58,720 bases of DNA from Candidatus Kryptoniota bacterium (lineage in GTDB: Bacteria > Bacteroidota > Ignavibacteria > Kryptoniales > JAKASW01). Made by a program: the position numbers and the translations under genes. Below the pieces are notes generated by a model, which saw only the letters and a list, made by a program, of their open reading frames with translations, was not told the DNA's origin and ran no database searches. Below, piece by piece: positions 5,803 through 45,260 of the stretch; position 1 is the first letter of the stretch; the number at the start of each line of letters is the position of its first letter. The stretch spans positions 1 to 58,720 of the forward strand of contig JAHECO010000094.1 of the NCBI GenBank assembly GCA_024641705.1, in the 5' to 3' direction.

Positions 5803-5828
5803 TTGTTAGCGTTTAGCCATTAGCTTTC

Positions 5829-5871
5829 AGCTATTAGCTCGCTAACAGCTATCAGCTAATTGCTAATAGCT
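5829..5871. repeat. Spacer repeats based on agctattagc
   Basis: agctattagc (5829-5838) and gctaatagct (5862-5871) are perfect inverted copies, with further partial copies between and before them (tagccattagct, cagctatcagct). The stretch separates the tRNA-like gene from the boxA and processing region before 23S. It can form an AT-rich hairpin; function unknown. Confidence 0.65.
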
Positions 5872-5878
5872 ATTATCG

Positions 5879-6192: not shown

Positions 6193-6261
6193 GTCTTCAA
6201 TTATCAATCAGCAACGATCAATGATCATCGGTAATTGTTAATTGATCATTCAAAAAAAATA

Positions 6262-16390: not shown

Positions 16391-17731
16391 TCAACCAGCT
16401 CCTGGCACCGATGGGCTGATCAGTGCAGACTCAGAAGAGACTATCGTAAGGGCGATCATGACTATCATGATTATCATCGAGACGATGACCTGGATGAAAT
16501 CGATCGCATTCTTCAGCTTGTATCCGGTTTCTTTTTCGTAGTAGTTCGCGAGCTGCAGCGCCGTATTCCGCACAGTTCCGGTCTCAGCACCGCTGTGGAA
16601 TCTCGAGATAGCCGTCTCACTGAAGACGTTGGTAGCGGCGAGCGATTCGGTAAGCCCCTTGCCCTGCGTCACCATCATGGGTATGGCGACCGTTTTGATC
16701 TGGTGCTCCATGTACTTGTTTCCGCATGCCTCGGCGGCGAGCCTGATGACGTCAATGTTCTCCCCGGACCCGCTGTACATAGCGTAGAACACCCTGCAGA
16801 ATATCTCTATACTTGTTTTGTGCAGCAACCCACCAACCGCAGGTATCTTAATCATGTACTTATCCATGTAGAACCTGCCCTTCTCAGTGGTGGCAAATCT
16901 CGCCATGAAAATCGAACCCGCGACAACGATCAGGCCCATCCACCAGAAGTTGGCCGTAAGGAAATGGCTGAGTTTCAGCGTAGCAGCCGTCATAGGCGGA
17001 ACCTGACCCAGCTTCGCGAACAACTCGGCGGTTGCGGGGAAGATATATGCCACGTAGTAGATGACGGCGATGAACAGGACAAACATTGTAACGGCCGGCA
17101 TTATGAGAGCGCTTTTGAGATTCTTCTTGAATTCCGCCTGCCGTTCGAGGAATTTCGCCGTGCTCTCGTAGATCTCCGACATATTGCCGCTCTTGGACGC
17201 AAGACCGAGCATATGGGCCGTAAATCGGCCGAAAACTTTCTCGTGTTTTAGGAACGCCTGTTCGCTGTCCTTACCCTGCTTTAAGTCGTTGTTGATGTCC
17301 CGGACCGTGTCCCGCAAAGTCTTGTTCTCAATATCGTTTGTCAAGAGCTGCAGGATCTCATTAAAGGGAAGCTTCTCCCTTAGCAGGTCGGCGCTGACAC
17401 GCACGAACGTGACCACTTCAGTGGCAGGGGGTTTCGGTTTGAAATCGAGAAGCTTCTTCTGGACAGAGATTACCTGAAAATCCAAATGCTGCAGGGCCTG
17501 CTTCACCTCTTCCTTCGTGAACGCCTTCTGTTCGCCGGTCACGGGCTTCTCCCCGTTGCGGCGCACCCTATACACAAAGGTAGAGCGGGCCCTTAGGTCT
17601 GTCAGTTTGAATTGGTTTTTCGAAGAAAGGTCTGCGACGATCTTCTTTGCCTGTGCGCGGGTTTCTGCCGAGACTATCCCTTGAACTGCGCGCCCGCCCG
17701 GCTTAACGCCCTGGAACCTGAATTCCGGCAA
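16391..17731 (-). CDS. pilC: PilC/GspF-like platform protein
   Basis: The 446-residue inner-membrane protein has a soluble N-terminal region of about 110 residues and then two GspF repeats (about 125-245 and 325-440). Three hydrophobic segments are visible, at about 225-250 (A-L-I-M-P-A-V-T-M-F-V-L-F), 275-295 and 415-435. It is the platform on which PilB and PilT act. The start is TTG at 17731 with gaggagg seven bases before it. It is separated from the upstream pilin gene by a strong hairpin terminator, so part of its expression likely depends on read-through. Confidence 0.92.
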   Translation of the reverse strand: MPEFRFQGVKPGGRAVQGIVSAETRAQAKKIVADLSSKNQFKLTDLRARSTFVYRVRRNGEKPVTGEQKAFTKEEVKQALQHLDFQVISVQKKLLDFKPKPPATEVVTFVRVSADLLREKLPFNEILQLLTNDIENKTLRDTVRDINNDLKQGKDSEQAFLKHEKVFGRFTAHMLGLASKSGNMSEIYESTAKFLERQAEFKKNLKSALIMPAVTMFVLFIAVIYYVAYIFPATAELFAKLGQVPPMTAATLKLSHFLTANFWWMGLIVVAGSIFMARFATTEKGRFYMDKYMIKIPAVGGLLHKTSIEIFCRVFYAMYSGSGENIDVIRLAAEACGNKYMEHQIKTVAIPMMVTQGKGLTESLAATNVFSETAISRFHSGAETGTVRNTALQLANYYEKETGYKLKNAIDFIQVIVSMIIMIVMIALTIVSSESALISPSVPGAG

Positions 17732-17745
17732 CTTTCGCCCTCCTC

Positions 17746-17797
17746 AAAATAAAAGGCAGGCGGGCAGCAAATCCTGAAACTTCAGGATTACTGCCCG
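17746..17797 (-). terminator. Terminator or attenuator between pilin and pilC
   Basis: cgggcag and ctgcccg (17761-17797) enclose a second perfect stem, atcctgaa/ttcaggat, giving a 15-pair hairpin with a small internal bulge. On the minus strand it is followed by cctgccttttatttt. It lies 20 bases after the pilin stop. Confidence 0.8.
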
Positions 17798-17817
17798 TCT
17801 TCCCTATCAATATGTGA

Positions 17818-18276
17818 CTAGTTAAGTACCTTCGTCGTTGCGCCGTTCTGGGTCACAACAGTTACGGCCTCAACATGGTTTATGTTGTCGTTGCCGACCT
17901 CGGTTCCAATACCGCAGATATAGATTGAATCCAAGGCAGTACCGACTGCGCCAACAGTACCGCCCATGATGCCCGTATGCGCAACGTACGTGTTCGCAGG
18001 ACCCGGATCAGTCGCCTGTACCCAGTAGCTACCGTTTGCATTGCCCGTGTCCACGGCGGCCATTGTGAACCCGCCGAAGCTCTGTCCGCCACCCGCCATC
18101 GCTACCGGTTTGCGATAGAACTGCTGTGCCTTCGCCGCGAGGTTATTCAAGTCGTTAATAACCTGGTCGCGGTTCGAGCTCTGTGCATTGCTCTTGAACA
18201 TCGAAATTCCGACCGCTATCGCGATTCCTACTATAATGACTCCAAGAACAATTAGCAGAAGTTGTTGCTGTCCCAT
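17818..18276 (-). CDS. Major pilin-like protein with minimal leader
   Basis: The 152-residue product begins M-G, then QQQLLLIVLGVIIVGIAIAV, a hydrophobic helix starting almost at residue 1, then a polar helical stretch and a Gly/Ala-rich beta-type C-terminal domain. This is the overall plan of a type IV pilin, but the leader is one or two residues and the Glu at +5 is missing, so it differs from classical prepilins. It is the first gene of the pilus locus, has its own strong promoter (18342-18370), the best ribosome binding site in the window (aaggaggt, four to five bases before ATG) and a terminator behind it. These features suggest that it is made in large amounts, as a major subunit would be. 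Confidence 0.8.
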   Translation of the reverse strand: MGQQQLLLIVLGVIIVGIAIAVGISMFKSNAQSSNRDQVINDLNNLAAKAQQFYRKPVAMAGGGQSFGGFTMAAVDTGNANGSYWVQATDPGPANTYVAHTGIMGGTVGAVGTALDSIYICGIGTEVGNDNINHVEAVTVVTQNGATTKVLN

Positions 18277-18341
18277 ACTTACCTCCTTTTAATTTTTAGG
18301 GGACGTTAAAAGAAAACTCTTAAACGCCATGCCTCAACCGA

Positions 18342-18370
18342 ATATTAACGGCATACGCCAAGAAAGTCAA
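18342..18370 (-). promoter_or_regulatory. Pilin promoter, sigma70 type
   Basis: On the minus strand TTGACT (18370-18365) and TAATAT (18347-18342) are 17 bases apart. The predicted start is near 18335, giving a leader of about 60 bases. The -35 box and its next two bases (TTGACTTT) equal those of the rRNA promoter at 8079-8107. Confidence 0.75.
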
Positions 18371-18570
18371 GTTTTCGGCCCTTTAACGAGCCGTCTAACT
18401 GATCAAGGCTAAGCAATATATGCAACTACGGTGCCGACATCTTGACATTGTCTTTTCCTATAGTATCGGCCCAAATCGTCTCAATCTTGGGAAGTTCAAA
18501 AAGAAAGAATTTCCTCATGGCCGAAAAAATTACCGTGACGTAACGCACCTGTGTAAGAAATGGAATACTG

Positions 18571-18692
18571 AAGACCGGAGACGGGAGACCGGAGGCTGAA
18601 GAGACCGCACGCGGGAGAAACCAGATGGAAATGTCATTCCCTGCCCACGGATTTTCCGGCTCCGGTTTCCGGTGTCCGGACTCCGGTCTCTG
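18571..18692. repeat. Palindromic repeat built from ccgga units
   Basis: The outer arms agaccggag (near 18572-18580) and ctccggtct (near 18681-18689) are inverted copies, and further ccggag/ctccgg units fill both sides (gagaccggaggctg; ccggctccggtttccggtgt). The element lies immediately after the truA stop codon. A related shorter element lies inside truA at 18902-18962. Confidence 0.7.
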
Positions 18693-18695
18693 TTA

Positions 18696-19505
18696 TTACT
18701 TTCCCCACAACCGGAATCCGTACCTGACTTCCTCCAAACAAAGGCCGCACGCGGGGGCGGACATCGAGGCAAGGCTCCTATCCCCCGAGTCGACGATTTT
18801 TCGAAATTCATCGACCGATATTTTGCCGCGTCCTACGTCGACCAGGGTTCCGACAATCGCCCTGACCATGCCGTGGAGGAAACGATTAGCTTCAACTTCG
18901 AACCGGAGACCGGAGGCCGGAAGCAGGACATCGCTTTCCCGGTTCCGGAATTCCGGCTCTTCTCTCCAATCCGCGGCCTCCGATTTCCACTCGGCTCTCA
19001 TCATGTCGCAGATGAAGTGTCGCTGCTGGTCAGCGTACTTGGTAAACGACTTAAAGTTCCTCTCACCGAGAAGAGACGCTGCAGCCAGGTTCATGGCCTC
19101 GAGGGATAGGGAGAACGGGAAAAAAGCCGCAAAGTGCCTGAGCATTGGAGCTTTTCTTGAGATGATTCTGTAACTATATCTTCTGGCAGTCGCCTCGAAA
19201 CGGGAGTGGAATCGGTCGGGCACTTCAGTCGCCGCGCGGACAGCCACATCCGCGGGTAAAGTCCCGTTAAGTGCATAGACGAATTTCTCAGGCGCCCACT
19301 CGTGCCCTGTATGGAAATTGGCAACCTGTCCCCTCGCATGAACCCCCGCATCCGTCCTTCCGGCTCCGATGAGCTTCACCTTTTCCTGCAGAATCTCGGA
19401 CAAGGTCTTCTCGATCACACCCTGGACGCTGTTGCTGTTCTTCTGAACCTGCCAGCCTCCATAGGCCGTACCATCATATTCTATCAGGAGTGCGATGTTG
19501 CGCAT
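18696..19505 (-). CDS. truA: tRNA pseudouridine synthase A
   Basis: The 269-residue enzyme converts uridines 38-40 of tRNA anticodon arms to pseudouridine. Visible signatures are L-I-E-Y-D-G-T-A-Y-G-G-W near the N terminus, the catalytic motif G-A-G-R-T-D-A-G-V-H-A-R-G-Q-V, A-R-R-Y-S-Y-R and the C-terminal R-F-L-H-G-M-V-R-A-I-V-G. ATG at 19505 is chosen because the family begins with M-R-N-I-A-L-L-I-E-Y-D-G; the longer frame upstream looks non-coding. Between the R-A-E-W and L-R-F-E-V-E-A-N-R-F segments there are about 18 extra residues (E-E-P-E-F-R-N-R-E-S-D-V-L-L-P-A-S-G) encoded by a palindromic repeat. All key residues remain, so the enzyme is probably active. Confidence 0.95.
   Translation of the reverse strand: MRNIALLIEYDGTAYGGWQVQKNSNSVQGVIEKTLSEILQEKVKLIGAGRTDAGVHARGQVANFHTGHEWAPEKFVYALNGTLPADVAVRAATEVPDRFHSRFEATARRYSYRIISRKAPMLRHFAAFFPFSLSLEAMNLAAASLLGERNFKSFTKYADQQRHFICDMMRAEWKSEAADWREEPEFRNRESDVLLPASGLRFEVEANRFLHGMVRAIVGTLVDVGRGKISVDEFRKIVDSGDRSLASMSAPACGLCLEEVRYGFRLWGK
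18902..18962. repeat. In-frame palindromic repeat inside truA
   Basis: accggagaccggaggccgg on the left and ggttccggaattccggctc on the right carry the same ccgga/tccgg units as the element at 18571-18692. The right side contains the 12-base perfect palindrome ccggaattccgg (18945-18956). The element keeps the truA frame open and adds residues not expected in the family. Confidence 0.7.
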
Positions 19506-19566
19506 TGACACTATTCGGAGAGGGAGGGACATTGAGATGGGGGGACAATGGGACAATCATGGAAGT

Positions 19567-19938
19567 TCATACGGTCCAATTCTGGGGCTGATTTGACATA
19601 ACGACTAATTTCCCGATTATACCATCATATCTGCTTTTAATTTCGGTAGCTGTAGCATGATTCACGTAGTTGCAACTAGCTGCAAATTCCAACCACGTCT
19701 GCGTCTCGGCAGCTTCAGCTTCTGCGTCGTTAAGCTTTGAAACGAAGGACTTGGGATACCGTCTCCTTCTAAACGCCTCAGCTATGTTGGCACAAACAGA
19801 TCTTGACGATCTGCGTATCTGGTCGGTAAGGGAATATTTCTCTTCGAGGGGAAATAGTTTAGAAATCTCAAAAATGCGCATAGCGGAATCAAAGCCCGCT
19901 CTATAAACCTCAAGGTCTTCGTGTGTCCTTATTCTCAT
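19567..19938 (-). CDS. Four-helix-bundle protein, S23/IVP family
   Basis: The 123-residue protein has the family signature H-E-D-L-E-V-Y-R near the start, L-T-D-Q-I-R-R-S-S-R-S-V-C-A-N-I-A-E-A in the middle, F-V-S-K-L-N-D-A-E-A-E-A-A-E-T-Q-T-W-L and a last helix. Relatives were first seen encoded by intervening sequences in 23S rRNA genes and are structurally like the Avd protein of diversity-generating retroelements. This copy is free-standing, and no reverse transcriptase or template repeat is seen nearby. Its molecular role is unknown. The flanks are low-complexity: G-rich gggacaatgggacaat downstream and C/T-rich sequence (19940-20060) upstream. The ATG has only gggaaag before it. Confidence 0.88.
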   Translation of the reverse strand: MRIRTHEDLEVYRAGFDSAMRIFEISKLFPLEEKYSLTDQIRRSSRSVCANIAEAFRRRRYPKSFVSKLNDAEAEAAETQTWLEFAASCNYVNHATATEIKSRYDGIIGKLVVMSNQPQNWTV

Positions 19939-20066
19939 CTTTCCCGCAAAACCTCGTTCCGATATTCTACCGTCCTATTCGTTTTTCACTCGCCCGTTCT
20001 CCCCCTCCCACACTCCCCCACTCCCAGATCCTTTTTCTGTGTCCCGCTCCTTCCCGGCTTCCGTTA
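19939..20066. other. Pyrimidine-rich spacer
   Basis: The plus strand is strongly C/T-biased (for example ctccccctcccacactcccc near 20000-20020), hence purine-rich in the direction of transcription. No gene is seen. Confidence 0.5.
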
Positions 20067-20759
20067 TCAGAAGCTCGCCGCAACCTTGAAGTAAACCCCC
20101 TGAGTCCCCGGAGAATTGTCCAGGGAAGTCGCTGCAGAGGCATTGACACCCGCGGCAAGCCGTCCGGCATCGACGGCGCTGATAAGATGGTTAAGGAAGA
20201 TGACGGCTAGAGTGTAGCGCCCGTAATTCAAATAAGTATCGGCCTTTATGCGCAGGCTCCTGAACTGGGCGCGTTCAGCGTCGGATTTCCACTGCCACTG
20301 GTAGGAGGGCTTGGAATATATCAGGCCATAGTAACCGTCATGAATCTTCTTAATGTTGTAGTCTTCCGTGTTCAGGAAGTTCCCGATGTCGACGAAGAAC
20401 TGGCTCGACTTTCCTGTGACGTCCGCCCCCGAATTTATCGCGGCATAATTGACAGCGTCGTCCCTCACCTGGTTCGAATACAAATCGAGACCCACGTACA
20501 GCACCCAAAGGGAGACTTCCGCAATCGTCGAGTACTTCCCGACGTCATACCTTCCGGCATAGAGTTCGCCCATACCGGGGACCAGGAGTGACGCAAAAGT
20601 GGCCAGGGTGGGGGATTTGCGCACCGGGGATACGTTATCCGTCATGACCTGTATGCCGGGGCCTGAGATAATCCTGTTCTGGAGGTCAAGCTTCGACTGG
20701 CTCATTGCCGGACTCGCCGCAACCGCCGCCAACAGCACTACCGCTGCAATCTTCCTCAT
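20067..20759 (-). CDS. Exported/membrane protein, DUF5683-like
   Basis: The 230-residue product has a signal peptide (K-I-A-A-V-V-L-L-A-A-V-A-A-S-P-A-M-S-Q), then A-T-F-A-S-L-L-V-P-G-M-G-E-L-Y-A-G-R-Y-D-V-G-K, a pattern of DUF5683-like proteins, two or three hydrophobic segments (around residues 55-70, 80-95 and 180-195) and a polar loop rich in Y and D between them. The function is unknown. It starts four bases inside mtaB, so the two are translationally coupled; that arrangement may be chance operon packing. Confidence 0.75.
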   Translation of the reverse strand: MRKIAAVVLLAAVAASPAMSQSKLDLQNRIISGPGIQVMTDNVSPVRKSPTLATFASLLVPGMGELYAGRYDVGKYSTIAEVSLWVLYVGLDLYSNQVRDDAVNYAAINSGADVTGKSSQFFVDIGNFLNTEDYNIKKIHDGYYGLIYSKPSYQWQWKSDAERAQFRSLRIKADTYLNYGRYTLAVIFLNHLISAVDAGRLAAGVNASAATSLDNSPGTQGVYFKVAASF

Positions 20760-44998: not shown

Positions 44999-45110
44999 TT
45001 GTTCTCCCTTTGTTTTACGGCATATATATAATGCGATGGTCGGGGTGAAATCGTATCATCGAATGATAGTATTTCACTGAAAGCCGGACTTGGAGAGGAG
45101 ACGTGAAATG

Positions 45111-45218
45111 GGAATAGTGGAATAATGGAATGCTGGAATGACGGGATGGTGAAGTGGTGGATGGCGGCGATGTCGATTTGTGGAATAGTGGAATGGTGGA
45201 AAGATGGAATGATGGAGG
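45111..45218. repeat. Degenerate tggaat microsatellite
   Basis: Units of eight or nine bases starting tggaat are strung together (gtggaatag, tggaataa, tggaatgc, then tggaatag, tggaatgg, tggaatga), broken by a 40-base diverged stretch. It lies downstream of the WYL gene in its reading direction. Confidence 0.75.
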
Positions 45219-45260
45219 TGGATGCGAGACGAGGTGCCTGCGCGCCCCTGTCAGTCGCTG

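Follow-up and report, generated by a model that had tools for sequence, protein, structure and literature searches.

How did a block of short repeated DNA come to stand, in frame, inside the truA gene of a Candidatus Kryptoniota bacterium, and what occupies the same place in its relatives? The window analysed here is a 58,720-nucleotide stretch, one contig of a 4.62 Mb genome of 95 contigs (labelled G000). The features concerned are listed below with their positions in the window.

18696 to 19556, minus strand: truA ORF, tRNA pseudouridine(38-40) synthase (profile match and alignment)
18909 to 18968, minus strand: 60-nt in-frame insert coding for 20 extra residues, WREEPEFRNRESDVLLPASG, without counterpart in genomes G001 and G008 or in the aligned order- and class-level relatives
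18900 to 18935, plus strand: 7-base quasi-tandem array of ACCGGAG units that makes up one arm of the insert (lag-7 site at 18894-18928; synonymous-codon null)
18936 to 18966, plus strand: partly complementary arm of CCGG/TCCGG units (from the sequence, with weak folding evidence)
18571 to 18692, no strand assigned: related element adjoining the truA stop, in which a central spacer separates two arms built of the same heptad units (unit matches and lag-7 scan)

The insert in TruA

TruA was identified by its match to TIGR00071 (194 bits). The conserved start is probably the ATG of MRNIALL near 19506, rather than the TTG at 19556. An initial annotation of this DNA, made by reading the letters alone, had proposed an in-frame insertion between two conserved segments of the enzyme. 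Alignment with relatives confirmed it: WREEPEFRNRESDVLLPASG stands between these segments. Its extent was corrected from about 18 residues at 18902-18962 to 20 residues at 18909-18968. The repeat array itself begins at about 18900 and extends into the conserved LRF codons of truA. The extra residues had also been tentatively placed in a surface loop. The alignment agrees with this, and the four-row structure model (pLDDT 51.5) sets the insert between strands 171-178 and 203-209; this model and the single-sequence one (pLDDT 37.1) are both too low in confidence to bear a claim.

A gene for a 23S rRNA IVP / four-helix bundle protein lies directly upstream of truA (19567-19938). IVP-like genes are present in 14 copies in G000 and stand beside truA in several congeners; no functional link was found. 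On the other side of truA, a sigma-54-like promoter (TCGGCACCGTAGTTGCATAT) was noticed on the minus strand at about 18417-18439, upstream of a pilin-like gene (17818-18276). It is accompanied by a block running from CGGTAATTTTT to GGAAATTTTTTC, which most congeners also have downstream of truA.

Periodicity and folding of the repeat

Periodicity was compared with synonymous recodings, in which the peptide was kept fixed and synonymous codons, pooled from truA of the whole genus, were shuffled. The lag-7 match over the whole insert was equalled in 6 of 400 recodings and the best 14-nt stretch at lag 7 in none of 400. Nothing unusual was seen at lags 5, 6, 8 and 9. The choice of periods, nulls and loci was made after the data had been viewed, and the p-values given here are uncorrected for this choice and for the number of tests. 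Lag 7 was also the commonest period in the genus (29 sites, versus 0-14 at the other lags from 4 to 16), as counted in samples of about 150-460 kb per genome, taken mostly from contig starts except in G000 and with crude ORFs as gene calls.

The insert had been described as palindromic. Its folding energy was within the ordinary range of dinucleotide shuffles (z -0.6) and was mildly unusual against recodings (19/300). The 7-base periodicity is thus the solid feature of the G000 insert, and 'palindromic' is a weak description of this copy. By the same two comparisons, the heptad element is not a short perfect palindrome of the REP/RAYT kind. Heptad and octad arrays were generally not hairpins (median z -0.37 for 43 sites versus -0.51 for 99 controls). 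An early scan for inverted repeats gave zero matches, with thresholds that were probably too strict.

Related copies in the same genome

The element directly behind truA had been recognized as made of the same units, and this held: the insert matches it over 27 nt at 78% in direct and over 28 nt at 79% in inverted orientation. An insert alone of its kind in the genome would have spoken against a dispersed repeat. Copies exist: CCGGAGACCGGAG, with at most one mismatch, had 25 matches in the genome versus 6 for the reversed control, and ACCGGAG-like units were found between genes and inside other ORFs. The heptads encode GDRRxET peptides on one strand and SGLPSP-like peptides on the other. Such peptides occur in ORFs for a GNAT acetyltransferase, an AcrB-type pump, HsdS, a solute-binding protein, SCO1 and an amino acid permease. 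In the GNAT and pump genes, the two for which congeners were compared, loops at the same place vary among species. The exact word GGAGACNGGAGACNGGAGAC is present in 4 of 247 genomes of the phylum and is not general there.

Other 7- or 8-base quasi-tandem arrays were seen in the window at 5805-5878, 6210-6250, 45103-45220 and 19989-20028; the first folds as a hairpin (z -3.0). Another dispersed repeat, containing for example the words AAATGTCATTC, CTCCTTCAGAA and AGCGGAGCGAC, was met at about 10 places in 459 kb of G000 samples (L082-L101).

The same turn in related genomes

A truA match was obtained in 58 of the 61 genomes searched. The alignment comprised 30 loci from this search and three other records. 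An insert was present at the same turn in nine of the 11 genomes of the genus that cover the site, and the site was empty in G001 and G008. The truA of G003 ends before the site and was left out of the 11. The aligned relatives at order and class level, about 20 in number, showed no insert; at this place, the two Prevotella records are longer by about 10 residues. In two assemblies, G003 (end of contig C138, L059) and G009 (start of C314, L076), the sequence is cut at an identical truA codon, near 173, about 36 nt short of the insert site.

Measured over the empty site, the inserts were of 60 nt (G000, G006, G009 and G012), 78 nt (G005, G010 and G011), 114 nt (G002) and 27 nt (G004), every length being a multiple of 3. 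The type of repeat varies by species: most have heptads, some have octads, and G004 has a perfect palindrome. Lag 7 exceeded synonymous recoding in G000, G006, G009, G010 and G012, and lags 7 and 8 both did so in G002. Lag 8 was raised, with no lag-7 signal, in G005 (2/400) and more weakly in G011 (26/400). A hairpin beyond recoding was found in G004 and G010 (0/300 each) and in G002 (4/300).

Most pairs of inserts were no more similar than half-wise shuffles. Clear similarity between species was mainly that among G009, G010 and G012 and between the near-identical G005 and G011; G000/G006 and a few other pairs were marginal. When inserts were compared with the truA flanks of seven species, the best match was the own flank in G000 (the element at 18571-18692), G002 and G004, and the second best in G012. 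The own flank ranked 7, 5 and 6 of 7 for the inserts of G006, G010 and G011. Own-flank matching was equalled in 93 of 5040 permutations over the seven species. A test against the k-mer vocabulary of each genome was noisy, its samples being mostly coding. In a tree built from truA only, most forks of the genus were unresolved.

The palindrome of G004

The truA gene of G004 holds AAGTGACCGTCACCTTCAAGGTGACGGTCACTT, and its insert is a perfect 33-nt palindrome. A copy directly behind the gene is identical to the one inside it (36/36 nt), and an array of 26-base units lies upstream of truA. The family gave 91 matches in G004 versus 6 for the control, part of them clustered round truA and the rest dispersed; it is therefore a dispersed, multi-copy short palindrome, as REP/RAYT elements are. 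No gene for a REP-associated tyrosine transposase was seen adjoining the palindromes in the G004 loci that were read. In G008, close variants of the palindrome stand just before and just after a REP-transposase-like gene, which matches NF047646 (REP-associated tyrosine transposase) with 60.4 bits, below the curated cut-off of 80. Between the palindrome and the heptads there is no sequence relation, so at least two kinds of element have occupied the TruA turn.

Alternative origins of the insert

Close relatives carrying the same loop with unrelated nucleotides had been named as a finding that would speak against a repeat element. Such loops do occur, but what they contain is again short repeats, and this indicates repeated colonisation or turnover of one site rather than ordinary protein evolution. 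A single ancient insertion could also have been inherited vertically, its sequence then changing through point mutations and slippage while a hydrophilic loop was weakly required, with no recurrence except perhaps in G004. The equal length of 60 nt in four species and the similarities within G009/G010/G012 and G005/G011 fit this history. It is nevertheless unlikely, given that most inserts are no more alike than shuffles, that G004 has an unrelated palindrome and that the site is empty in two species. An ordinary, fast-evolving disordered loop, its DNA repeats being a by-product of composition, would agree with the way loops in other genes, such as the GNAT and pump genes, vary naturally in length; it is very improbable, as the lag-7 or hairpin signal of most species is lost on synonymous recoding. 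A functional RNA or DNA hairpin of the truA mRNA (regulation or termination), incidentally translated, has in its favour the related element directly behind the stop, a common position of REP-like hairpins (PMC3733652), and is hardly probable at all since an Rfam search of 17500-20200 gave no match at E up to 1, the G000 insert folds weakly and its sequence is not conserved between species.

Relation to known repeat systems

In-gene repeats are already known as a kind. Cyanobacterial STRR are known inside rnpB. Short repeats are inserted in frame in protein genes of Rickettsia, with related copies elsewhere (PMC10969869, review), and the G000 insert has both properties. The kinship with Rickettsia elements first suggested holds for this in-frame insertion and not for membership: in place of a palindromic family of about 150 bp, there is a heptad-built insert of 60 nt, weakly palindromic (z -0.6) and with no family sequence conserved between species. 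Coding genes that harbour REPs are described as well, among them S. maltophilia truA and the truB genes of several species and of R. conorii (PMC3733652). The likeness to such intragenic, RAYT-associated repeats covers the G004 palindrome, which is dispersed and whose variants flank the RAYT-like gene of G008 (a match of 60.4 of 80 bits), and excludes the heptads. Heptameric repeats are over-represented in non-coding DNA (PMC4692102). As in the simple repeats of Nostoc and Xanthomonas and in cyanobacterial STRR, 7-base units are dispersed here (PMC4692102), and tandem units of this length are commoner than others; unlike those, they also occur inside conserved protein genes, are degenerate and have partly complementary arms. 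On the preferred reading, the heptad element acts like Rickettsia palindromic elements or intragenic REPs and has the definition of neither. In a limited literature search, in-frame repeats in protein genes were reported mainly from Rickettsia and REP-rich genomes, and the heptad build with genus-wide turnover at one turn was not found.

Probable colonisation of a tolerant turn

The heptad element probably entered the TruA turn in frame and was kept because this turn tolerates extra residues. The best reading of the genus as a whole is that short repeats settled in a tolerant turn on at least two occasions and turn over fast there; the loop seems to be a place where small repeats of a kind that genes tolerate land or are exchanged again and again. 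Part of the pattern is inheritance, given the sequence shared among the G009, G010 and G012 inserts. The initial annotation had suggested a small mobile repeat that tolerates coding sites. Tolerance agrees with the related copies inside ORFs and with the variable length at this place; as to mobility, movement or conversion of the heptads is what we infer. For these units, no mobility event was seen, and neither a target duplication nor a transposase was tied to them.

Repeats may arrive or be replaced at the turn by copying from neighbouring or dispersed copies. For the heptads, copying could proceed via slippage, template switching or conversion; for the G004 palindrome, insertion could be aided by a transposase. 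A stop-free 7-base unit suits coding sites, where only the total length must be a multiple of 3. As 7 equals 1 modulo 3, the repeating 7-residue peptide is one and the same in all three frames of a strand (GDRRPET for GGAGACC, for example). It is possible, though doubtful, that stop-free heptads are a class of element that spreads into genes in any frame, each giving this one peptide, and that the TruA turn is a lasting site at which one short repeat gives way to another, unrelated one between species.

No benefit of the insert for the enzyme is claimed. One enzyme turn can be traced through a genus in empty, heptad-filled and palindrome-filled states, and the entry, turnover and tolerance of repeats in coding sequence become directly testable there.
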